From Elusimicrobiota bacterium (GTDB taxonomy: Bacteria; Elusimicrobiota; UBA8919), in NCBI GenBank assembly GCA_040757695.1, contig JBFLWK010000019.1:1-32431 (forward strand): 32,431 bases of DNA. The letters are read 5' to 3'. The notes beneath the pieces were generated by a model that was not told where the DNA came from, made no database searches, and saw nothing but the letters and a program-made list of their open reading frames with translations. A program made the position numbers and the translations under genes. Every line of letters starts with the position of its first letter. Position 1 is the stretch's first letter. This document shows, piece after piece, positions 2,682 through 31,905 of this stretch.

Positions 2682-4346
2682 ATGGATTTCACAGAATTGA
2701 AACAAATTGCTTACAAAGAGTGGGAAAAAATTGTAAACCCGTCAAAGATTCTGATATTCGTAGGGCTTGGAACCTGCGGGAAATCTGCCCAAGCAGAAGA
2801 AGTAGAAGCAGTATTGTCCGCACTGTGTAAAAAGAAAAAAGTTGATTTTGAAATAATCCAGGTCGGTTGCATCGGGCTTTGCTATTTAGAACCATTAGTT
2901 GAGATAATTAAACCTGCCCAAACACCTGTATACTTTGGTAATCTCACAGTTAAAGAAGTTCCTAGGATTGTTAATTATATTTTGCATAATAAAATTCCAC
3001 AGAAACTTATTGTTGATGTAAAAAAATTACTGAAATATCAAACCAGAAGAATTCTGAAAAGATGTGGACTTATTAGCCCGGAAAATATCTATCATTACAT
3101 TGCGAACGATGGATACAGCGGGATAGATTTAGCATTGAAAATGTCGCCGGAAGGAATTATCAACGAAATAAAAAAATCCGGGCTTCGCGGTCGTGGTGGT
3201 ATTGGTTTCCCGACGGGTAGAAAATGGGAATTATGCCGAAACGCGAATACATACGAATTAGAAAATACGAATAAACACGAATTAAAAAGTATTCGTAGAA
3301 ATTCGTGTTGTAATTCGCACAAATTCGTGATTTGTAATGCTGAAGAAGGTGAACCTGGCACTTTTAAGGACCGGCTTCTGTTGGAAAGCGACCCGCATTC
3401 TGTTATTGAAGGTATGCTTATCGCAGGTTATGCGGTTGGTGCTGAAACTGGCTATATCTATATCAATCATAATTACACAATTGCGATAGATAGAGTCAAA
3501 AAAGCAATAGAAGAGGCAACAAAATATGGACTGCTTGGTAGAAATATTTTGGGCTCCCAATTTAATTTCCAGATTTTTGTCACATCTGCCGAAGGCGGTT
3601 ATGTTTCCGGCGAAGAAACAGCACTTCTGGAATTGCTTTCAGGTAAAAAAAGTATTCCGCGTTCAAGACCGCCATATCCAGTTGAAAAAGGTGTATTCAA
3701 TATGCCAACAGTTGTGAATAATGTTGAAACATATGCTAATGTGCCACAGATTATATTATATCATACAGAATGGTTCAGACAATGTGGGAATGTAAACAGT
3801 AGTGGGACAAAATTATTTTCAGTTTCAGGCGAGGTAAATAGACCAGGTGTAGTAGAATTACCATTAGGTATCCGCTTGAGACGGCTAATTTTTGATATTT
3901 GTGGTGGCTTACCGAAAAATAAAAAATTGAAAGCTGTTTCCGTCGGTGGACCTACCGGTGGCTGTGTGCCTAAAAAATATATTGATATATCAGTGGACTT
4001 TGATTCACTTTCCGAAATTGATGCTGCGATGGGTTCAGGCGGTATTATTGTTATAGATGAAACACAATCTATGGTTGAACTATGTAAATATTTTGCAAAA
4101 TTCAATATGAACGAATCCTGTGGAAAATGTAGCCCTTGTAGAATTGGCACGGTGCATTTATTCAATATCTTGAAAAAGATTACAGATGGTAAAGGCACAA
4201 CCGATGATATAAATAAACTGCAAGAACTTGCAAAAACAATTAAACTAACTGCTTTGTGCGGGTTAGGTCAGTCCGCACCGAATCCGGTAATATCAACATT
4301 AAAACATTTTTATTCTGAATATCAAAAAGTTCTATGCCACAAATAA
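2682..4346 (+). CDS. NuoF/HydB-like NADH-binding flavoprotein subunit
   Basis: This subunit should bind FMN and NAD(H) and pass electrons to the formate dehydrogenase encoded next. A thioredoxin-like [2Fe-2S] domain comes first (Cys32, Cys63, Cys67). The FMN/NADH domain has GLRGRGGIGFPTG (about 166-178), AEEGEPGTFKDR and EGGYVSGEETAL. An SLBB region follows, then ESCGKCSPCR (about 477-486) and a later Cys for the [4Fe-4S] cluster. It lacks the C-terminal ferredoxin domain of bifurcating HydB. About 18-20 extra residues at roughly 187-208 come from an inverted repeat element. It overlaps fdhA by 13 nt, so the two are probably translated together. No NuoE-like gene is adjacent. Confidence 0.88.
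   Translation: MDFTELKQIAYKEWEKIVNPSKILIFVGLGTCGKSAQAEEVEAVLSALCKKKKVDFEIIQVGCIGLCYLEPLVEIIKPAQTPVYFGNLTVKEVPRIVNYILHNKIPQKLIVDVKKLLKYQTRRILKRCGLISPENIYHYIANDGYSGIDLALKMSPEGIINEIKKSGLRGRGGIGFPTGRKWELCRNANTYELENTNKHELKSIRRNSCCNSHKFVICNAEEGEPGTFKDRLLLESDPHSVIEGMLIAGYAVGAETGYIYINHNYTIAIDRVKKAIEEATKYGLLGRNILGSQFNFQIFVTSAEGGYVSGEETALLELLSGKKSIPRSRPPYPVEKGVFNMPTVVNNVETYANVPQIILYHTEWFRQCGNVNSSGTKLFSVSGEVNRPGVVELPLGIRLRRLIFDICGGLPKNKKLKAVSVGGPTGGCVPKKYIDISVDFDSLSEIDAAMGSGGIIVIDETQSMVELCKYFAKFNMNESCGKCSPCRIGTVHLFNILKKITDGKGTTDDINKLQELAKTIKLTALCGLGQSAPNPVISTLKHFYSEYQKVLCHK
3244..3330 (+). repeat. In-frame inverted repeat element inside the nuoF-like gene
   Basis: Four CGAA cores start at 3244, 3254, 3268 and 3278, and four TTCG cores follow, with Cs at 3294, 3304, 3316 and 3326. 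The arms contain CACGAATT and AATTCGTG, so they are inverted. Spacing is 10/14/10 on the left and 10/12/10 on the right. It encodes a hydrophilic insert before the conserved KFVICN motif. Confidence 0.75.
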
Positions 4347-7661: not shown

Positions 7662-9374
7662 ATGGCTAAAAATGTGCCGTCAGATATTGAGATTGCACAA
7701 TCAATCAAACTGGAACCAATTATGGAGATTGCAGAAAAAATCGGAGTAAGAAAAAACGAACTTGAACTACATGGCGACTACAAGGCGAAAATAAAACTGG
7801 AAATTCTTGAGCGGCTCAAAGATAAACCACAAGGCAAATATATTGATGTAACCGCAATCACACCAACACCATTAGGTGAAGGAAAAACAGTAACAACAAT
7901 CGGGCTTTCACTCGGGCTTAATAAAATTGATAAAAAGGTTATTACTACTATCAGACAGCCATCATTAGGCCCTGTTTTTGGTATTAAAGGTGGCGCAGCA
8001 GGAGGCGGATATTCGCAGGTTTTACCAATGGAGGACTTCAATCTGCATCTTACCGGCGATGTCCATGCGGTATCAATCGCTCACAATTTGTGTATGGCAT
8101 TTCTGAATAATGCACTTTACCGACGACAAATAAATATAGACCCCAAAAAAATCTTATGGCGGTATGTTGTTGATGTCTCGGAACGGTTTTTAAGAAATAT
8201 AATTACAGGGCTTGGTCCCGGTGACGACGGTGCACCACTCTATACCGGTTTTGATATCTCGGTTGCTTCAGAAGTGATGGCGATTCTGGCATTAACAAGT
8301 TCACTGCGGGATTTAAGAGAACGATTAAGAAAAATAGTGGTTGCATTCACATATGATAACAGACCTGTAACCGCAGAAGATATAAAAGTTGCTGGTGCGA
8401 TGGCGGTACTCTTGAAAGATGCAATCAAGCCTAATTTGTTGCAGACGACAGAAGGCACACCGTGTTTTGTTCACGCAGGACCTTTCGCAAATATCGCACA
8501 CGGGAATTCATCAATCATTGCGGATAAAATTGCATTAAAACTGACTGATTATGTGGTTACAGAAAGCGGATTCGGTGCGGATTGCGGAATGGAAAAATTT
8601 ATGAATATCAAATGCAGATATTCCGGGCTTATACCGAATTGTGTTGTGATGGTTTGCTCAATCAGAGCGTTAAAAATGCATTCAGGTAAAATAAATGTTG
8701 TTGCCGGTAAATCGCTACCGGATGAACTTGCAAAAGAAAATTTAGAATTGGTAGAACAGGGTTTGTGTAATTTAGAAAAACAGATTGAAAATGCAAAATT
8801 GCATGGTGTGCCAGTAGTGGTTGCAATCAACAGATTCACAACAGATACCGATAGAGAAATAGAACTTGTCAGAAAAAAAGCAGTTGAATTTGGTGCTGAA
8901 GATGCTGTTGTTTCAGATGTTTGGGAAAAAGGTGGCGAAGGTGGTAAGGAACTTGCAAAAGCAGTTGTAAAAGCATGCGAGAAAAAAGAAGGCGGACGAC
9001 AATTCAGGTTCCTATATGAACTGAACTGGCCTATCAAGAAAAAAATAGAAACAATTGCAACAAAAATTTACGGTGCAAAAGATATACAATATCTTCAACC
9101 TGCAGAAGAAAAAATTAAACTCTATACCGATTTAGGCTGGGATAAATTACCGATAAATATGGCGAAGACGCATCTGTCACTTTCACACGAGCCAAGTTGG
9201 AAAGGTAAGCCGAAGGATTTTATATTGCCGATTCGTGATATTCGCGCATCAGTCGGCGCCGGCTTCCTGTATCCGCTTTGCGGCGAGATGAGAACAATGC
9301 CAGGACTGCCATCAGTCCCCGCAGGTACCAGAGTTGATATAGACAAAGATGGTAAAGTCATCGGCTTATTTTAG
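7662..9374 (+). CDS. fhs: Formate-tetrahydrofolate ligase
   Basis: It uses ATP to join formate to tetrahydrofolate, giving 10-formyl-THF, the second step of the methyl branch. At 570 residues it is slightly longer than the usual 556. The P-loop region TPTPLGEGKTVTTIGL lies near residues 68-83, then RQPSLGPVFGIKGGAAGGGYSQ with residues typical of the family, NLHLTGD, and FADI-type folate-site sequence. The C-terminus PGLPSVPAGTRVDID is also conserved. A perfect promoter and GGAGG precede the start, so it is probably transcribed separately from the fdh genes. A 32-bp palindrome begins 3 nt after the stop. Confidence 0.96.
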   Translation: MAKNVPSDIEIAQSIKLEPIMEIAEKIGVRKNELELHGDYKAKIKLEILERLKDKPQGKYIDVTAITPTPLGEGKTVTTIGLSLGLNKIDKKVITTIRQPSLGPVFGIKGGAAGGGYSQVLPMEDFNLHLTGDVHAVSIAHNLCMAFLNNALYRRQINIDPKKILWRYVVDVSERFLRNIITGLGPGDDGAPLYTGFDISVASEVMAILALTSSLRDLRERLRKIVVAFTYDNRPVTAEDIKVAGAMAVLLKDAIKPNLLQTTEGTPCFVHAGPFANIAHGNSSIIADKIALKLTDYVVTESGFGADCGMEKFMNIKCRYSGLIPNCVVMVCSIRALKMHSGKINVVAGKSLPDELAKENLELVEQGLCNLEKQIENAKLHGVPVVVAINRFTTDTDREIELVRKKAVEFGAEDAVVSDVWEKGGEGGKELAKAVVKACEKKEGGRQFRFLYELNWPIKKKIETIATKIYGAKDIQYLQPAEEKIKLYTDLGWDKLPINMAKTHLSLSHEPSWKGKPKDFILPIRDIRASVGAGFLYPLCGEMRTMPGLPSVPAGTRVDIDKDGKVIGLF

Positions 9375-9376
9375 TA

Positions 9377-9408
9377 TTTCACAATTTCAGAATTCTGAAA
9401 TTGTGAAA
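9377..9408 (+). repeat. Perfect 32-bp palindrome between fhs and arsR-like gene
   Basis: The left half is TTTCACAA then TTTCAGAA, and the right half is its exact reverse complement with no spacer. It lies between the fhs stop and the arsR-type start. It may be the regulator's operator, an fhs transcript-end hairpin, or a repeat element with 8-bp units. Relatives are at 376-403 and 9719-9750. Confidence 0.85.
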
Positions 9409-9424
9409 AAGAGAGGTGATGTAT

Positions 9425-9718
9425 ATGTCACAAATTTTATTAAGAGTTTTAAAGGCAGTATCTAACGAAAGGAGAATAAAAATAATAGAACAATTGTTAA
9501 GACACAAAAAAATAGGATTAGCCAAAATTGCTCAAATAACAAATATACCAGTTTCATCAACTTGCCGACACTTAAAGATGTTAGAAACTAATTTGATGGT
9601 GCAGCATCAAATAAAAAATGGTAAAGTATATTATTCATTAAATCCTAAGAGACCCCTACGGTTCAATAGAAACATTATTAGCCTTTTGAAAAAGCAACGA
9701 AAGAGATATAAATATTAA
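9425..9718 (+). CDS. ArsR/SmtB-type winged helix regulator
   Basis: A 97-residue winged helix protein. It opens LLRVLKAVSNERRIKIIEQLL, typical of ArsR helices 1-2, followed by the recognition region IAQITNIPVSSTCRHLKMLE and a wing at GKVYYSLN. The metal-binding motif ELCVCDL is absent, and a single Cys lies in the recognition helix, so it is unlikely to sense metals in the classical way. I chose ATG 9425, with GAGAGG 9 nt upstream, over GTG 9416 and ATG 9419. It sits between C1 genes and hydrogenase genes and is flanked by related palindromic repeats, so a role in controlling them is plausible but unproven. Confidence 0.82.
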   Translation: MSQILLRVLKAVSNERRIKIIEQLLRHKKIGLAKIAQITNIPVSSTCRHLKMLETNLMVQHQIKNGKVYYSLNPKRPLRFNRNIISLLKKQRKRYKY

Positions 9719-9750
9719 ATTTCACTTTTCTGAAATTCTGAAATTCTGAA
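9719..9750 (+). repeat. 4 x 8 bp repeat arm before hydrogenase small subunit
   Basis: Units are ATTTCACT, TTTCTGAA, ATTCTGAA and ATTCTGAA in 8-bp phase, directly after the regulator stop. It shares TTTCAC and TCTGAAA with the palindrome at 9377-9408. Confidence 0.7.
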
Positions 9751-9777
9751 AAACTGGAATTCCTATTTGAGGGTTAA

Positions 9778-16094: not shown

Positions 16095-17108
16095 ATGGAA
16101 ACTAAATATATCAACAACCAAAACTGGCAGAACTTTTTGTTAAATCAGATAGAAAAATATGATATTTTTTCGCTTTTTGTAGCCGACGAGAATAACTATA
16201 ATTATTCAAAACTATCTTCTAAAAACTTAAATGAGACAGTTATTGGTAAATATCGTGCCCAGGTACCGATTAAAACATTTTTCTTTCCACCAGTCGAAAA
16301 AATAATTCCTGCTGCTGAAAAAAAACCAAAAATTATAATTGGCATAAAAGCATGCGAACTGGTTCATCTTCGGTTGTTTGACAGTATATTTCTGGGTGGT
16401 GAATACAGAGACACTGTTTATGAAGAAGCGAGAAAAAACACAATAATAATTTCTGCTGATTGCACATCTGCGAAGGAATGTTGTTTCTGTTCTGTTATTG
16501 ACGGTCAGCCATATGCGACATCAGGTTTTGATATAAATCTTCGGCCTGTTGGAAACGGGTTTGTTGTTGAAATTTTAAGCGAAAAGGGTAAAGAACTCGT
16601 TAAAAAAAATGAACATCTTTTCCAGGATATAGTTCAAAACTACATAATTGAATCCGAAAGAAACAGAAGAAGCGTTAACGAACAGGTTATAAGAATAAAT
16701 ATAAAGAAGAATATAAATTTTACAAAGCGACTTAACAAGGCGGTTAATTCAGTCAACCCAGAATTCTGGAATGAGGTTTCTAAAGAATGCGTTGAATGTG
16801 GTGGCTGCAGATTTGTCTGTTCAAGTTGTTATTGTTTTTTGCTTGGTGAGCTTCCGGATTTTGAGAAATATCGGTTATGGGATGCCTGTCAGTTTAAGGG
16901 CTATGCGCGTGTAGCAGGTGGTGCTAATCCTAAGCCGACAAAAGAAAAACGGTATAAAAACTTGTATTCTTGCAAGTTTGATTACCGGTATACAAATTTC
17001 GGTTTCTATGCCTGTAGCGGGTGTGGTAGATGTATTGAGGTTTGTCCTGCAGAAATAGATATAAGAGAAGTAATAACGCAGATTTCCGCAGATGAAGTAC
17101 GCAGATGA
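16095..17108 (+). CDS. Sulfhydrogenase beta / AsrA-like iron-sulfur protein
   Basis: This family (hydrogenase HydB/ShyB, sulfite reductase AsrA) carries electrons between an FAD/NAD(P) subunit and a catalytic partner. The 337 residues include FFFPPVEKI, IIGIKACELVHLRLFDSIF and ADCTSAKECCFCS in the N-terminal part, then two [4Fe-4S] motifs near the C-terminus: CVECGGCRFVCSSC and CSGCGRCIEVCPAEI. The upstream TTG at 16074 lies inside the promoter, so ATG 16095 is the start. The gene is paired with a gamma-type FAD subunit. Its hydrogenase partner is not of the usual group 3b, so it may serve the soluble hydrogenase or MetFV; this is inference. The last residues are encoded by a repeat. Confidence 0.85.
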   Translation: METKYINNQNWQNFLLNQIEKYDIFSLFVADENNYNYSKLSSKNLNETVIGKYRAQVPIKTFFFPPVEKIIPAAEKKPKIIIGIKACELVHLRLFDSIFLGGEYRDTVYEEARKNTIIISADCTSAKECCFCSVIDGQPYATSGFDINLRPVGNGFVVEILSEKGKELVKKNEHLFQDIVQNYIIESERNRRSVNEQVIRINIKKNINFTKRLNKAVNSVNPEFWNEVSKECVECGGCRFVCSSCYCFLLGELPDFEKYRLWDACQFKGYARVAGGANPKPTKEKRYKNLYSCKFDYRYTNFGFYACSGCGRCIEVCPAEIDIREVITQISADEVRR

Positions 17109-17158
17109 CCGCGGATAGAAAACGCAGATGACCGCAGATTTATCAGCGGTCATCTGCG
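17077..17158 (+). repeat. 23-bp repeat x 3 plus inverted copy between the beta and gamma genes
   Basis: CGCAGAT-like units start at 17077, 17087, 17100, 17110, 17123 and 17133, alternating 10 and 13 bp. CGCAGATGACCGC (17123-17135) pairs with GCGGTCATCTGCG (17146-17158), giving a 13-bp stem and 10-nt loop. It encodes the end of the upstream protein and reaches the next start region. Confidence 0.85.
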
Positions 17159-18788: not shown

Positions 18789-18790
18789 CA

Positions 18791-18872
18791 GTTTAGAGTG
18801 TAGAGAATTTAGTTTAGAGAAAACTCAAAAACTCTAAACTCTAAACTCTAAACTCTGAACTCTAAACTCTAA
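18791..18872 (+). repeat. Empty inverted repeat element (4 x 7 and 5 x 7) before the nuoH-like gene
   Basis: Left arm 18791-18818 has units GTTTAGA, GTGTAGA, GAATTTA and GTTTAGA. Right arm 18832-18866 has five CTCTAAA-type units plus a partial one, inverted to the left. The final A is the first base of the nuoH-like ATG, so there is no separate ribosome binding site. The left arm is nearly the same as those at 29083 and 30787. Confidence 0.9.
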
Positions 18873-24195: not shown

Positions 24196-25599
24196 ATGGG
24201 AACATTAGTTTTATTATCAATCGGAATTCCATTTTTTGGTTCATTTGTAAATTTGATTATTAGGAAAAAACAGGCATTGCTTTCTACAATATTTATATTT
24301 GCAGGTTTTGTTACTTCTGCTTTCCTTGTTTCACCAATACTGTCAGGAATAACAAAATATTTTTACAAATATTTTACTGACTTTTTCTCAACCGCATTTG
24401 TGATTGACGGCCTTTCTGTATTTATGGCGGTTGTCTCTTCGTTTATCGGATTTTTAATAGCAATTTATTCAGCAGGTTATATGCAAAATTACCAGCATCT
24501 TAAAGAATACTATTTCTATATTACTTTATTTGTCGGCTCTATGCTTGGACTGGTTTTTTCGGCGAATCTTTTGTTACTTTTTATCTTCTGGGAAATTACA
24601 GCGCTCTGTTCCTGGCGATTGATTGGTTTTTACAGAGATGAGAAAGGGCTTTTAGCGGGCGACCGCGCGTTTCTATTAACATTTCTTGGCTCGGGATTGA
24701 TGCTCGCCGGGTTTGCACTGGTTTTTGCTGAATATAGTACATTAAACATTTTAACATTGCACGGTAAAACGATACCACTCTTTGCGATGGTTTTAATTTT
24801 TTGCGGGATGCTCGCTAAATCCGCCCAACTGCCGTTTCATTTGTGGCTCCCTAATGCAGGTGTTGCACCATCACCGGTTACCGCATTTCTTCACGCTGCT
24901 GTTTTGGTAAAAATAGGTGTGTATGCGTTTGCACGGCTTTTTGTGTTCACATTCCCAATGATTCCTGATTTTCAGAATATAGTTGCGATTATTTCAGTAA
25001 TTACGATACTGGTTGCAGGTGCCGCTGCTTTTGTAGAACACGATATAAAAAGAATACTTGCATATTCTACAATTTCACAAATTGGCTACATATTTTTGGG
25101 ATTTAGTACAAATGTACTAATTGGAATTACCGGCGCTATTTTTTATATTCTTGTTCACGGACTTGGTAAGGCAGGCCTGTTTTTAGCCGCAGGGATTGTA
25201 GAGCACAACACACACGAAAAAGATATCAGGAAACTTGGCGGGCTTGCGAAAACGATGCCGTTGACATCAATTGCGTTTCTTTTATGTGCATTCTCAATTA
25301 TAGGTTTCCCGCCATTTGGTGGCTTTTTTGCCAAACTTTATGTAGTGATGTCAATAGTGCAATCAGGAAAAATTTGGCTTGCAGCACTTGCTATTTTAGG
25401 TGCTGTATTTACGCTACTGTATCTTTTCCGTCTGTATAATGCTGTATTTTTAGGAACGCAGATTACGCTGAAAAAAAACGCAGATTACGCAGAAAAGACA
25501 AAGTCCATGGTTGTTGTGGTTTTACTCTTTGGTATTCTGTCACTTTTGACTGGACTTCTGCCACAGATTCCTTTGGCATTTATTGAACTAATAAAATGA
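24196..25599 (+). CDS. Antiporter-like membrane subunit 1 (NuoL/NuoM/MrpD family)
   Basis: A 467-residue polytopic ion-translocation subunit. The conserved acidic residue is in LLFIFWEITALCSW (near 135) and the conserved Lys in GMLAKSAQLPFHLWLPNAGVAPSPV (near 205), with LVKIGVY following. IKRILAYSTISQIGY and FPPFGGFFAK are further family signatures. A repeat at 25457-25497 adds a hydrophilic segment near residue 421-435. It overlaps a 36-residue gene at its end. It is the first of three antiporter-like subunits in this operon. Confidence 0.92.
   Translation: MGTLVLLSIGIPFFGSFVNLIIRKKQALLSTIFIFAGFVTSAFLVSPILSGITKYFYKYFTDFFSTAFVIDGLSVFMAVVSSFIGFLIAIYSAGYMQNYQHLKEYYFYITLFVGSMLGLVFSANLLLLFIFWEITALCSWRLIGFYRDEKGLLAGDRAFLLTFLGSGLMLAGFALVFAEYSTLNILTLHGKTIPLFAMVLIFCGMLAKSAQLPFHLWLPNAGVAPSPVTAFLHAAVLVKIGVYAFARLFVFTFPMIPDFQNIVAIISVITILVAGAAAFVEHDIKRILAYSTISQIGYIFLGFSTNVLIGITGAIFYILVHGLGKAGLFLAAGIVEHNTHEKDIRKLGGLAKTMPLTSIAFLLCAFSIIGFPPFGGFFAKLYVVMSIVQSGKIWLAALAILGAVFTLLYLFRLYNAVFLGTQITLKKNADYAEKTKSMVVVVLLFGILSLLTGLLPQIPLAFIELIK
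25457..25497 (+). repeat. Four CGCAGAT-type units inside antiporter gene 1
   Basis: CGCAGATTA units with a related CGCTGA/CGCAGA half start at 25457, 25466, 25479 and 25488 (spacing 9/13/9). The unit resembles that at 17077-17158. It encodes a polar loop and keeps the frame. Confidence 0.7.
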
Positions 25600-25706
25600 A
25601 AGACCCGCTTACTATTTTGTATGGTGTGATGTCAATTATTGCACTTGTCGGTATTGTATGGGTTACAATTCATGATAAAAAGATGAGGAAAGCAAAACAG
25701 CAATGA
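25596..25706 (+). CDS. 36-residue single-pass membrane protein
   Basis: This micro-gene overlaps its neighbours by ATGA on both sides: its ATG at 25596 overlaps the stop of antiporter gene 1, and its TGA at 25704 overlaps the start of antiporter gene 2. The product has one hydrophobic helix (about 7-25) and a basic tail ending KMRKAKQQ. This double coupling is strong evidence that it is translated and probably a small subunit of the complex. It resembles the 34-residue product at 18187-18291 in layout. Confidence 0.68.
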   Translation: MKDPLTILYGVMSIIALVGIVWVTIHDKKMRKAKQQ

Positions 25707-27694
25707 GCATCCTACTTTACCCGATTTTTTTACCAATTGTGATTGGTATTGTAATGTTATTGATAGGTAGACGCGGCCTTAAGGCCTCACTACCTGTAAT
25801 TACGACATTTATCGTTTTAATTTTAAGTATTGTATTATTTTCAGCAGGTGAGATAAATTATACGATTCCATGGCTTTCTTTTGGAATTGATTTTTCTCTT
25901 CGGGCTTATTCATTTTCAGCAATGTGTGTTTTGTTTTCGTCATTATTTGCATTTTTAATCTGCCTTTACCTTCTACCTTCTACCTTCTACCTTCTACCTT
26001 CTTTCATACTCATCAATCTCGGAGTTGTTAACGGTGCGCTTCTTTCAAACAATTTTGTAATTTTTGTTTTATTCTGGGAACTCGCTGCGATAATGTTGTA
26101 TTTATTAATAAGAACACAGAACAGATACGAAATCCCGCAAGCGAGGCACGGAACAGACACGGAAAGTTCTGTTTCAGTTCCGTGTAAAGTTCAGAGTCAG
26201 TTCTGTGATTCCTACAAAACAGCGACGAAGGCGCTTTATATTATCGGGTTTTCAGATTTCTGCCTTTTACTCGGAATCATTTTATTGTGGAATTTAACAA
26301 AAACATTTAATATGTCCAAAATCCATAATCTTCTACCTTCTACCTTCTACCTTCTACCTTTTACCTGCCTTTGCATTGGTGCACTTGCAAAGGCAGGTGC
26401 GATGCCGTTCCATACATGGATACCGGATGCGTCTAAAGATGCGCCGGTTGAAGTAATGGCATATCTTCCCGCATCTCTGGACAAACTTTTAGGAATATAT
26501 CTTCTTGTCAGAATTTGTACCGACTTCTTTAACTGTCAACTGTCAATTGTCAACTGTCAACTTGTTTTGATGTTCCTCGGCGCTTTTACAATCATCGCTG
26601 CCGTATTTATGGCACTTGTTCAGCATGACTTAAAAAAAATGATTGCGTATATGAATATATCAGGTGCAGGTTATATGGTTTTAGGTATTGGAACTAATAC
26701 CCCTATTGGTATTGCAGGTGGACTTTTTTATATGTTAGGCACAGTTTTATGGACATCGTGTTTGTTTTTATGTAGTGGTTCGGTTGAAAAACAAACAGGA
26801 ACAACGGAATTAGATAAACTTGGTGGACTTTCAAAAGTGATGCCAATTACTTTTTGGGCAACCCTAATTGCTGCACTTTCAATTTCAGGTGTCCCACCGT
26901 TTAATGGTTTCTTCTCAAAATGGCTGATTTATCAAGGGCTGATACAGCAGATAGCAGATAGCAGATGGCAGATAGCAGTTGTTTTGTTTTTAGTAGCAGC
27001 GATGTTTGGTTCTGCACTTACTTTAGCGTCATTTATAAAATTGATACATTCAACATTTTTGGGCAAACCGTCAACCGTCAACCGTCAACCGTCAACCGAT
27101 GTCTCATGGACGATGTGGTTCCCGACGGTAATTTTAGCAGTATTGTGTATTATTTTCGGCATTTTCGCCTATCAGATTCCATTGAAACATTTCATCTTTC
27201 CTTCCATTCGCTTCGCTCACCCCCCAATAAATTGGGGGGCATTTAGTGGATTATGGCATCCTGATTTAGCAACATTGTTAATTATTGTCGGCATAATTCT
27301 CGGCTTGATAATTTATCTTTTGGGAACGATAAAAACTATAAGAAAAACGGAAACATATATCTACGGTGAATCACCTGAAATTTTTACAGAGGGCTTCCAG
27401 GGAACGGAATTTTATCTTACGATTTCTAACTCAAAACCATTCGCTTCAATTTATAAAAAAGCAGAAAAGGGAATATTAGATTTCTACAACTGGGCATTTA
27501 ATATCGCAAAAATGGTTGCCAATAGTTTCTTTATATGTATTGACAGAATGCTTGAAAATATTTATATTGGTATAGACCGTTTGACAGCGATTGTTTCAAC
27601 ATTTACTTCGGAACTTCAGGGCGGGCTTTTGCAGATTTATCTTTATTGGTCACTGTTTGGATTGATGATTCTTTTATTTATGCTTTGCAGGTGA
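25703..27694 (+). CDS. Antiporter-like membrane subunit 2 (HyfB/NuoL-like) with many repeat insertions
   Basis: A 663-residue polytopic subunit. It keeps the key Glu in FVLFWELAAIML (near 130) and Lys in ALAKAGAMPFHTWIPDA (near 231), then LKKMIAYMNISGAGY and VPPFNGFFSKW. The C-terminal extension (about 545-663, with GFQGTEFYLTI) ends in further helices, perhaps like the lateral arm of NuoL. Seven repeat elements lie inside the gene, all in frame, mostly in predicted loops. Without them the length would be roughly 580-600. The reading frame is open throughout, so the gene seems functional in spite of the insertions. Confidence 0.9.
   Translation: MSILLYPIFLPIVIGIVMLLIGRRGLKASLPVITTFIVLILSIVLFSAGEINYTIPWLSFGIDFSLRAYSFSAMCVLFSSLFAFLICLYLLPSTFYLLPSFILINLGVVNGALLSNNFVIFVLFWELAAIMLYLLIRTQNRYEIPQARHGTDTESSVSVPCKVQSQFCDSYKTATKALYIIGFSDFCLLLGIILLWNLTKTFNMSKIHNLLPSTFYLLPFTCLCIGALAKAGAMPFHTWIPDASKDAPVEVMAYLPASLDKLLGIYLLVRICTDFFNCQLSIVNCQLVLMFLGAFTIIAAVFMALVQHDLKKMIAYMNISGAGYMVLGIGTNTPIGIAGGLFYMLGTVLWTSCLFLCSGSVEKQTGTTELDKLGGLSKVMPITFWATLIAALSISGVPPFNGFFSKWLIYQGLIQQIADSRWQIAVVLFLVAAMFGSALTLASFIKLIHSTFLGKPSTVNRQPSTDVSWTMWFPTVILAVLCIIFGIFAYQIPLKHFIFPSIRFAHPPINWGAFSGLWHPDLATLLIIVGIILGLIIYLLGTIKTIRKTETYIYGESPEIFTEGFQGTEFYLTISNSKPFASIYKKAEKGILDFYNWAFNIAKMVANSFFICIDRMLENIYIGIDRLTAIVSTFTSELQGGLLQIYLYWSLFGLMILLFMLCR
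25969..26001 (+). repeat. 4 x 7 bp CCTTCTA tract inside antiporter gene 2
   Basis: Four exact CCTTCTA units (25969-25996) plus a partial one. It encodes YLLPSTFYLLPS and shares its unit with tracts at 26330 and 12260. Confidence 0.9.
26114..26207 (+). repeat. Nested inverted repeat with about 11-bp units inside antiporter gene 2
   Basis: CACAGAAC (26114-26121) pairs with GTTCTGTG (26200-26207), and CACGGAAC (26147-26154) with GTTCCGTG (26177-26184). The right arm has four TTC-led units of 11-12 bp. It encodes a polar insert of about 30 residues. Confidence 0.75.
26330..26365 (+). repeat. 4 x 7 bp CTTCTAC tract inside antiporter gene 2
   Basis: Four exact CTTCTAC units (26330-26357) followed by a degenerate fifth. 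Same orientation as the tract at 25969, so the two are not an inverted pair. Confidence 0.9.
26531..26561 (+). repeat. 4 x 7 bp AACTGTC tract inside antiporter gene 2
   Basis: Units AACTGTC, AACTGTC, AATTGTC and AACTGTC (26531-26558) plus AAC. It encodes NCQLSIVNCQL between membrane helices. Confidence 0.88.
26946..26978 (+). repeat. 4 x 7 bp AGCAGAT tract inside antiporter gene 2
   Basis: Units AGCAGAT three times with GGCAGAT fourth (26946-26973), then a partial unit. It encodes QQIADSRWQIA. Confidence 0.88.
27069..27098 (+). repeat. 4 x 7 bp CGTCAAC tract inside antiporter gene 2
   Basis: Four exact CGTCAAC units (27069-27096). It encodes STVNRQPST in a loop. Confidence 0.9.
27205..27239 (-). 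repeat. Palindrome with GTGAGCGAAGCGAA tail inside antiporter gene 2
   Basis: CCCCCCAAT and ATTGGGGGG form a 9-bp stem (27220-27239). Read on the minus strand, the palindrome is followed by GTGAGCGAAGCGAA, nearly the same tail as at 10665-10680. The palindrome sequence itself differs between the two copies. Confidence 0.75.
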
Positions 27695-27698
27695 ACAA

Positions 27699-28238
27699 AT
27701 GTCTGAAATAATTTTAATTTCAAGTTTAATTTTTGTTCTTATTATGGCGGTTGTTGCGGTTCAGATAAGAGATTTGTTATCTTCGGTGATGGCGCTTGGT
27801 GGTGTTGGCTTCGGGCTTGCGATTATTTTTATGTTCTTGGCAGCGCCTGAAGTTATGACTGCACAACTTGTCGTAGAGGTTATCTGTTTTACAATAATGG
27901 TAGCGGTTGTATTTAAGACATCTAAAATTGATAAAACGAGAAAATACTCGGTGCAAGAAATTTCACCTGCGGCTGCGATGTTTTTCTTTGGTATAATTTT
28001 TGTTATTTTTGTTATTTGGGGAATAAAAGAACTACCCATGTTCGGTTCACCACTGATGCGGACTTCATCGTTACAGATTAGTAAAACGGTTTCAGAAATC
28101 GGCGCTACAAATATCGTCACTGCGATTCTTCTGGACTTTCGTGCATGGAATACATTGATTGAAGCAGTTATTATTATTACAATGATTATTGGTGTTGCGG
28201 TGATTTTGAGGAAGAAAGGGAAAAAGTTGATTAGATGA
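27699..28238 (+). CDS. MbhD/MbhE-like fused subunit (MrpA C-terminal type)
   Basis: A 179-residue membrane protein. The first half, RDLLSSVMALGGVGFGLAIIFMFLAAPEVMTAQLVVE, matches MbhD/DUF4040. The second half, ATNIVTAILLDFRAWNTLIEAVIIIT, matches MbhE. Both correspond to the C-terminal part of MrpA, so this gene plus an antiporter-like subunit replaces MrpA. The conserved acidic residues in both parts are retained. Its last codons and stop lie in a 4 x 8 repeat. Confidence 0.88.
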   Translation: MSEIILISSLIFVLIMAVVAVQIRDLLSSVMALGGVGFGLAIIFMFLAAPEVMTAQLVVEVICFTIMVAVVFKTSKIDKTRKYSVQEISPAAAMFFFGIIFVIFVIWGIKELPMFGSPLMRTSSLQISKTVSEIGATNIVTAILLDFRAWNTLIEAVIIITMIIGVAVILRKKGKKLIR

Positions 28239-28299
28239 TTAGATGATTAGTTGATTGGTCATTTTATCTAATTAACTGTTCAACTAATTAACTTTGCTA
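28229..28299 (+). repeat. Paired 4 x 8 bp inverted repeat element before mrpB
   Basis: Left arm 28229-28260 has GATTAGAT twice, then GATTAGTT and GATTGGTC. Right arm 28268-28299 has CTAATTAA, CTGTTCAA, CTAATTAA and CTTTGCTA. The arms are inverted around 7 nt. The element includes the upstream stop codon and ends 4 nt before the mrpB ATG. Confidence 0.85.
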
Positions 28300-28747: not shown

Positions 28748-29083
28748 ATGATTATTTATCTATCAAGTATTTTATTGTTTTTAATCGGGCTTTACTGTAT
28801 AGTCAGTAAAGAGAATCTGCTTAAAGTAGTGATTGGTATAAAAATTATGGGTTATGGTGTATGTTTGTTTTTTATACTTTTGGGCTGGGAAACGGATGCG
28901 CAGGCACCGATAATTGTTGAAGGAACTCAAAAAATTTTTGTTGATCCGTTACCGCAGGCGTTAATTCCTGCTATTATGATAATTTCGCTTGCCGCTACAA
29001 TTCTGATGCTTGCGACCTGTGTGCGTCTGTATGAAAAATACGGCACATTTGATATCAGTAAGATAAAAGAACTAAAAGGATAG
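28748..29083 (+). CDS. mrpC: MrpC/MbhG-like antiporter subunit (NuoK family)
   Basis: A 111-residue, three-helix protein homologous to NuoK. KENLLKVVIGIKIMGYGVCLFFILLG includes the conserved helix 2 region, and DPLPQALIPAIMIISLAATILML is the hallmark of helix 3. It belongs to the Mrp module. Normally mrpD follows directly, but here a four-helix-bundle gene with repeat arms lies between them. The stop codon region touches the left repeat arm at 29083. Confidence 0.91.
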   Translation: MIIYLSSILLFLIGLYCIVSKENLLKVVIGIKIMGYGVCLFFILLGWETDAQAPIIVEGTQKIFVDPLPQALIPAIMIISLAATILMLATCVRLYEKYGTFDISKIKELKG

Positions 29084-29488
29084 TTGAGAGTTGAGAGAGA
29101 TTAGTTTAGAGATAGATTAAAAGACTGATGTTTAATTTTGAGAAATTAATAGTTTGGCAAAAAGCAGTAAAATTTAGTGATGAAATATATGAAATGACAA
29201 AAAGATTCCCAAAAGAAGAAATTTTTGGAATTACAAGCCAATTACGACGAGCAAGTATATCTATTGCATTAAATATCGATGAAGGGGCAGGTAGAAAATC
29301 AAAAAAAGAATTTTCTCATTTTTTAGCTATGGCTTATGGCTCTCTATGTGAGGTTATTACAATATTGAAAATATGTTTGAGCAGAAAATATATTGATGAA
29401 AAGATATACGTGAAATTTTATACTGATGGTGAAGAAATTGCCCGTATGATAAGCAGTATCTCTAAACGCTAAACTAAGTTCTCTAAAC
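29083..29488 (+). mobile_element. Putative mobile unit: four-helix-bundle gene bounded by inverted 4 x 7 bp arms
   Basis: The left arm 29083-29110 has units GTTGAGA, GTTGAGA, GAGATTA and GTTTAGA. The right arm 29461-29488 has TCTAAAC, GCTAAAC, TAAGTTC and TCTAAAC, inverted to the left. TTAGTTTAGAGA (29101-29112) and its complement with flanking bases (29480-29492) form 13-bp inverted ends. Only one gene lies inside. Elements with nearly the same left arm but no gene occur at 18791 and 30787. The unit splits the usual mrpC-mrpD order without damaging either. No transposase is present, so the mobility is inferred. Confidence 0.6.
29128..29472 (+). CDS. Four-helix-bundle protein (S23 / 23S rRNA intervening-sequence type)
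   Basis: A 114-residue protein matching the family known from 23S rRNA intervening sequences and related in fold to Avd of diversity-generating retroelements. Signatures: FEKLIVWQKAVKFSDEIYEM, FPKEEIFGITSQLRRASISIALNIDEGAGR (about 27-56) and FLAMAYGSLCEV. The usual NIAEG reads NIDEG. Related proteins form pentamers, and the role of the stand-alone copies is unknown. The gene has no link to the hydrogenase. The last three codons and stop are within the right repeat arm, so the gene and arms seem to form one unit. Confidence 0.9.
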   Translation: MFNFEKLIVWQKAVKFSDEIYEMTKRFPKEEIFGITSQLRRASISIALNIDEGAGRKSKKEFSHFLAMAYGSLCEVITILKICLSRKYIDEKIYVKFYTDGEEIARMISSISKR

Positions 29489-29492
29489 TAAT

Positions 29493-31037
<1,545 letters not shown>

Positions 31038-31822: not shown

Positions 31823-31905
31823 GGTTAAAGGTAAAAATAAAAGGTTAAAATTAAAGGTATAAACTAAAATTCAGAAATTTTAACCTTTAACCTTAAACCT
31901 TTAAC
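31823..31905 (+). repeat. Inverted heptad element between mrpF and mrpG
   Basis: The left arm (about 31823-31857) has GGTTAAA-like units, and the right arm 31878-31905 has four CTTTAAC-type units, inverted to the left. It fills most of the 101-nt gap. Confidence 0.8.

Follow-up and report, generated by a model that had tools for sequence, protein, structure and literature searches.

Intervening sequences (IVSs) of 23S rRNA lie in helix 9, 25 or 45 of the molecule, and RNase III removes them from the transcript. In Coxiella burnetii, the 23S rRNA IVS is 428 nt long, has 28-bp terminal inverted repeats and carries an S23 open reading frame (ORF), upstream of which stand two to four tandem GACAGAT heptads with a strain-dependent copy number (PMC4990558). 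The authors noted that a role of the ORF in mobility had once been proposed, and called the origin and function of the IVS unclear (PMC4990558). Two other kinds of heptad repeat have been described. The cyanobacterial STRRs are 7-bp tandem units that form hairpins between operon genes and have no known function (PMC2670836), and the GGGAATC heptads of Xanthomonas often come as four units, with 70 of 186 arranged as convergent inverted pairs (PMC4692102).

The locus described here lies in an Elusimicrobiota genome, within a stretch of 32,431 nt that was analyzed as a whole (the window). It has the same anatomy as the Coxiella IVS, i.e., an S23/PF05635 ORF, inverted ends and heptads, and like an IVS (about 430 nt), it is a short insertion, of 406 bp, with inverted arms of ~28 bp. 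Unlike the 23S rRNA IVS, however, it sits between mrpC and mrpD, outside the rRNA genes. Elements of this kind further differ from the IVS in having many copies per genome, gene-less relatives, arms that differ from element to element, and filled and empty sites in ordinary operons and plasmids. From the comparison of genomes, the locus is very likely a copy of a mobile element that is widespread and self-contained and spans ~400–430 bp. In this element, an S23/IVP gene is flanked by inverted arrays whose purine-rich units measure 7 or 8 bp, and the gene-less versions would be its non-autonomous relatives. The initial annotation of this DNA had read gene and arms as a mobile unit; that interpretation is supported and widened, since the arrangement recurs across about 15 phyla.

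The insertion between mrpC and mrpD

The left arm (29083–29112, forward strand) is built of purine-rich heptads, GTTGAGA (twice), GAGATTA and GTTTAGA, followed by GA; its boundary is given by the empty sites of relatives, and its G completes the TAG stop codon of mrpC. The four-helix-bundle gene (29128–29472, forward strand) encodes 114 aa, and the right arm (29461–29491, reverse strand), inverted relative to the left one, contains the gene's stop codon (29470–29472). The gene is thus bracketed by inverted repeat arms, with its stop codon in the right arm, as had been annotated. The sequence TCTCTAAACTAA (29480–29491) is the exact reverse complement of TTAGTTTAGAGA in the left arm (29101–29112), and this left-arm 12-mer recurs at 18809 and 30805 within gene-less elements, which also agrees with the annotation. 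By comparison with the orthologous empty site, the insertion is exactly 29083–29488 (406 bp), with an ambiguity of 1–3 bp.

The arms had been described as 28 bp each, in four units of seven. They are real, but that register is not the best one: it gives 16 of 28 identical positions, equalled by 20 of 32,021 windows at the same spacing, whereas a shift by one unit gives 18 of 21 (Smith–Waterman score 15, shuffle P 0.0005, random-position P 0.0016). The right arm is also longer than described, reaching ~3 bp beyond 29488, to about 29491. Nor does 4 × 7 hold as a set architecture, as the number of units varies between elements and the unit length is either 7 or 8.

A profile search assigns the gene to PF05635 (S23/23S_rRNA_IVP) with E = 2.6e-38 and 130.9 bits, compared with a gathering score of 33.8. 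The AlphaFold model of the protein has four helices and a pLDDT of 95.9. In a structure search with this model, the closest PDB structures are 2gsc (TM 0.94) and 2rld, which are four-helix bundles alike. The entry 2gsc, with five chains of a single sequence, is XCC0516 of Xanthomonas campestris; the Xanthomonas heptads, compared by their description, thus belong to a host that encodes the closest solved relative of the window protein. The next matches are Avd of diversity-generating retroelements (DGRs) and the DGR reverse transcriptase (RT)–Avd complex (TM 0.75–0.82), and Pfam ties PF05635 to bAvd. Avd shares the four-helix-bundle fold (TM about 0.8) at about 10% sequence identity. However, Avd sits beside an RT and has no repeat arms, and a DGR also has template and variable repeats next to the gene, whereas the present gene has arms, and a profile search for an RT in the window genome found none above the cut-off, which places the element outside the DGRs. 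The gene evolves under purifying selection, with a dN/dS of 0.12 as the median of 63 pairs. It is the only gene of the element and codes for no known nuclease, transposase or polymerase.

Arms of other gene copies

The window genome (2.89 Mb) contains 13 PF05635 matches, which represent 12 genes. By eye and by alignment, all 12 are flanked by inverted arrays with a unit of ~7 or 8 bp, which answers positively the question of the initial annotation whether other copies in the genome have such arms. The unit sequence varies from copy to copy (AGAAGCA, GTGTAAT, GGGTGTA, AGATAGG, GGTTAAA, the octad GTGGTTAA and others). The arm's own partner is the best or joint-best match in nine of the 12 elements; in the exceptions, L001, L005 and L008, it is outscored by an arm of another element. 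Matched arms are likewise found in most of seven family-mate genomes and in 80 loci of named organisms, among them Omnitrophota, Atribacterota, Bacteroidota, Planctomycetota, Nitrospirota and Patescibacteria. At two copies on contig C10 of the window genome (L008 and L009), the four-helix-bundle ORF runs in frame through the right arm into a downstream secreted-protein gene, and in this read-through the right arm makes up a hydrophobic, signal-peptide-like stretch.

A survey of 209 PF05635 genes from about 15 phyla scored inverted arms by Smith–Waterman alignment with a threshold of 14. This score was reached at 180 of the 209 genes (86%), compared with 5.6% of cross-paired arms from different loci and 4.2% of random placements in the same loci; at a score of 20, the values are 57%, 0.6% and 0.3%, respectively. 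About 14% of the copies have no arms detectable at the threshold of 14, and a search for 23S rRNA around 20 weak-arm loci found none. The best joint period of the arms is 7 in 138 cases, 8 in 55 and another value in 16, and the left and right arms agree in period by 111 to 4. Related elements at unrelated sites have DNA in common only over arms and gene. Two further measures carry a bias of their own: the identity of the two arms is 0.83 in register vs. 0.73 shifted, a comparison that we set aside because the alignment itself selects the best register, and the left arm lies at a median of −3 bp from the upstream stop codon (80 of 104 within 30 bp), a distance biased by the stop codons inside the arms, so that a position near the stop codon is suggestive.

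The unit length (7 or 8) tracks the protein tree, with 18 changes vs. 38 when the labels are shuffled. When labels are shuffled within taxonomic groups only, the value is 32.1 changes and the minimum 24, and none of 500 shuffles is as low as 18. The arm sequence follows the protein as well: between different taxa, arm similarity grows with protein identity (Spearman 0.154 vs. 0 ± 0.027 in permutations), and the arm 5-mer cosine rises from 0.04 at <45% protein identity to 0.33 at 65–80% and 0.83 at >80%. Gene and arms therefore share their inheritance across phyla, the unit length being conserved for longer than the unit sequence. The protein may recognize the unit length, and the co-variation could also reflect common descent, in part or instead. 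The speculation of the initial annotation that an oligomer is linked to the number of units is unsupported, because that number varies; it is the length of the unit that follows the protein. One pair of elements, L192 and L003, has proteins that are 79% identical and a common unit core, AGTGGTTA, yet a period of 7 in one and 8 in the other.

Filled and empty sites

The annotation had suggested comparing orthologous mrpC–mrpD junctions. The junction is filled by 29083–29488 in the window genome and empty in four family-mates (G001, G003, G006 and G007); G002 has gene-less heptad arrays there, and G004 and G005 have another palindromic array insertion at the same point. At further intergenic sites, an element is present in one genome, and relatives have nothing or an unrelated array hairpin.

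The cleanest cases of movement come from plasmids of the Nostoc group. At a site in a VirB10 operon where the flanks are 97.4–97.8% identical, Trichormus variabilis and Scytonema have the element, whereas Nostoc linckia, Tolypothrix, Microchaete, Aulosira and N. carneum lack it; Nostoc C052 retains a shortened remnant of the element at this site. In Nostoc ATCC 53789, the same gene neighborhood occurs on three plasmids: pNsp_a has an element at one junction, pNsp_c has a different one at the adjacent junction, and pNsp_b has none. No constant target-site duplication was found at the filled/empty pairs; the candidates are TA, TTCTA and GTAATTAA. The comparison of genomes at these sites shows mobility of the element, and the joint insertion of gene and arms at sites empty in relatives, together with their joint travel across phyla, shows that they form a unit, as had been proposed.

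In six Flavobacterium species (L077, L088, L099, L100, L101 and L105), the element is kept at one place with a dN/dS of about 0.02, and may be a domesticated copy. Palindromic insertions made of a second repeat type, ~11–23 bp long (CCACAGATTAACACAGATTAA, CGCAGATTACGCAGA), are seen in comparable positions, i.e., at the mrpC–mrpD junction of G004 and G005 (L120 and L121) and at 17075–17139 and 25455–25496 of the window; this repeat type possibly represents another element family.

Gene-less arrays and hairpins

Besides the gene-bearing element, the window contains four gene-less inverted elements. One with AGTTTAG/AGTTGAG heptads (30786–30877) lies in frame within mrpD; its site is occupied by a heptad array, (ACTTCCC/G)4, in G004 and G005 and by nothing in G006 and G007. 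The second, with AGTTTAG heptads and a 12-bp loop, is intergenic (18790–18872), and the others are built of GGTTAAA heptads (31824–31905) and of octads, TGATTAGA (28225–28293). Single heptad arrays also occur inside a hydrogenase/NADH-dehydrogenase-like gene (25703–27694): TTCTACC (25967–26002), CTTCTAC (26330–26366), AACTGTC (26531–26562) and AACCGTC (27066–27098) on the reverse strand, and AGCAGAT (26946–26978) on the forward strand.

Across 418 kb of the window genome, only periods of 7, 8 and their multiples are enriched, with 116 period-7 and 49 period-8 arrays at a score of 14 vs. at most one in a Markov simulation. Heptad arrays occur at ~0.6 per kb. They are strand-polar, the inverted partner of a purine-rich array lying downstream in 29 cases and upstream in three, and many are single, with no inverted partner. 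Within the inverted pairs of the 418 kb, the spacing is bimodal, with loops of 12–92 bp or interiors of 228–406 bp. All credible long interiors hold a PF05635 gene or a remnant of one, with the exception of an ArsR-like regulator gene (9416–9718), which stands between inverted octad arrays (ATTTCAGA) at 9368–9394 and 9734–9762 of the window.

Gene-less arrays resemble the arms of their own genome's elements (at least 0.7) in 44% of cases, vs. 13% (maximum 28%) for control sets of 12 elements from family-mates, 2% for the phylum and 3% for other phyla. This resemblance to resident arms supports the view, already put forward in the annotation, that the empty elements are non-autonomous relatives. 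Array density was compared between genomes with and without the gene, N runs being excluded. Within the phylum, where the samples are phylogenetically clustered, 346 kb from genomes with the gene contained 28 arrays, and 365 kb from genomes without it contained none; within one family, likewise clustered, six arrays in 142 kb stand against zero in 159 kb, bar one tetranucleotide run. Pooled over these clustered samples, 34 arrays stand against 0 in about 0.5 Mb each. Within 13 kb, L149 has four gene-less hairpins that are nearly identical to one another, at 4288, 6024, 8500 and 17291; they consist of AATGAAA/AATTAAA heptads with a 21-bp loop.

Mechanism and competing explanations

In the mechanism that we infer, an oligomeric four-helix-bundle protein would bind the arms with one contact per unit, the arms probably being bound as a folded single strand or hairpin, and would bring the two ends of the element together. 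The strand chemistry would be left to host replication or repair enzymes rather than to a transposase or RT of the element, and the gene-less versions, i.e., arms with a loop of ~20 bp, would be its non-autonomous relatives. The element would be tolerable to the host because it inserts between genes or at a stop codon and has stop codons inside its units. The 23S rRNA IVSs encoding S23 would be its rRNA-resident form. The element encodes no known joining enzyme, the window genome has no RT above the cut-off, the gene is present in genomes with neither RT nor Y1 transposase, and the Avd of a DGR is armless; together, these make an arm-bound oligomer with joining by host enzymes the most likely mechanism, one that we nevertheless advance tentatively and put at somewhat below even.

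An RNA intermediate would have the protein act like Avd, with an RT supplied in trans. The modelled fold and the Pfam connection to bAvd agree with this, and the four-helix-bundle gene and RT co-occur overall and in two families. However, the window genome has no RT above the cut-off despite its 13 PF05635 matches, and within its family the RT is missing from seven of eight genomes, all eight of which have the gene. Moreover, the gene occurs with neither RT nor Y1 transposase in 13 genomes of the phylum, including a single-contig one, and the negative control, a true Avd gene next to the RT of a phage DGR, has no arms; an RNA intermediate is therefore unlikely. Hairpin ends are the kind of substrate used by Y1 enzymes, and a host Y1 transposase (IS200/IS605- or REP-type) could move them in trans, with the four-helix-bundle protein as an accessory only. 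Y1 genes are present in all eight genomes of the window's family and are associated with the four-helix-bundle gene overall (odds ratio 4.4). This association is not significant within families, however, and Y1 is absent from 20 of the 84 genomes with the gene, while the arm sequences are far too variable for a single hairpin-specific enzyme. We regard a Y1 enzyme as unlikely too, if slightly less so than an RNA intermediate.

The abundance of heptad arrays in the window genome could also suggest ordinary slippage-prone simple repeats, between which the gene came to lie by chance or in repeat-rich intergenic space, and bacterial heptamer repeats have been attributed to polymerase slippage (discussed in PMC4679880). 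Yet matched inverted arms stand at 86% of the genes vs. 4–6% in the controls, long interiors almost exclusively hold the PF05635 gene, and arms and gene are joined both in insertion and in inheritance, the latter across phyla. These tests refute slippage-prone repeats as a full explanation, a chance origin of the arms is rejected by the shuffles, cross-pairs and random placements, and we consider this reading highly improbable. A host function, in which the hairpins regulate neighboring genes of an mRNA or keep them apart and are bound, as RNA, by the protein, is compatible with a mobile element. It has in its favor the insertions between operon genes, the purifying selection on the gene, the conserved Flavobacterium loci, and the proposal that the STRR hairpins found between hupS and hupL act on translational coupling or on the stability of the transcript (PMC2670836). 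However, the patchy and recently changing presence on near-identical plasmids and the occupation of one site by different elements suit a selfish element, and a host role as the main explanation seems improbable, a little more so than an RNA intermediate.

Relation to described elements

A DDE/IS-type transposon has a transposase in its autonomous form, fixed end sequences and a constant target duplication. Such a transposon, or a MITE derived from one, was rejected for the present element: its only gene is PF05635, its arm sequences differ per element, and no constant duplication was seen. MITEs and REP/RAYT systems similarly pair short, non-autonomous elements that have inverted repeats with a relative that codes for a protein; unlike them, the present elements have no transposase, and their ends are tandem 7/8-bp arrays that change between elements. 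We find no known kind of mobile element that contains this class, with its four-helix-bundle gene, inverted 7/8-bp array ends, gene-less relatives and lack of a joining enzyme; the class would include the rRNA IVS, not the reverse. In the literature searched, mostly without subscription papers and preprints, no paper was found that links the STRRs to the four-helix-bundle gene or that brings the IVSs, the STRRs and the Xanthomonas heptads together, and an earlier description is possible.

A broader proposal, on which we are evenly divided, is that of an element class with no transposase, recombinase or RT, in which an Avd-like four-helix-bundle oligomer alone sets the ends by reading the unit spacing (7 or 8 nt) in repeats whose sequence is otherwise free. 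The S23 IVS, the cyanobacterial STRRs and the Xanthomonas heptads would then be its copies and remains, as would many "simple" heptad repeats, along with the junk peptides that these give rise to in bacterial proteins. If true, a single origin would account for the 23S rRNA IVSs, the heptanucleotide STRRs, the G-rich heptads and the overrepresentation of 7-bp simple repeats in bacteria, and the PF05635 four-helix-bundle family (about 15 phyla here) would be assigned a function. It would also imply a mobile element without a known DNA- or RNA-joining enzyme, its ends set by repeat length rather than sequence, and the link between S23 and Avd would become directly testable.

STRRs have been described as gene-less repeats, whereas the present elements carry a four-helix-bundle gene. 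The arms of cyanobacterial four-helix-bundle genes are nevertheless of STRR type, with GGGAGTA, GGGAACA and AGGTGAC-type heptads, and such genes lie between nrdB and nrdA, between cas6 and cas4 (on two plasmids) and elsewhere. The two cas6–cas4 insertions, L310 and L308, are different four-helix-bundle elements, and each lies in a type I-D CRISPR locus of its cyanobacterial plasmid. At L201, a group I intron (RF00028, 1166–1398) adjoins a four-helix-bundle gene.
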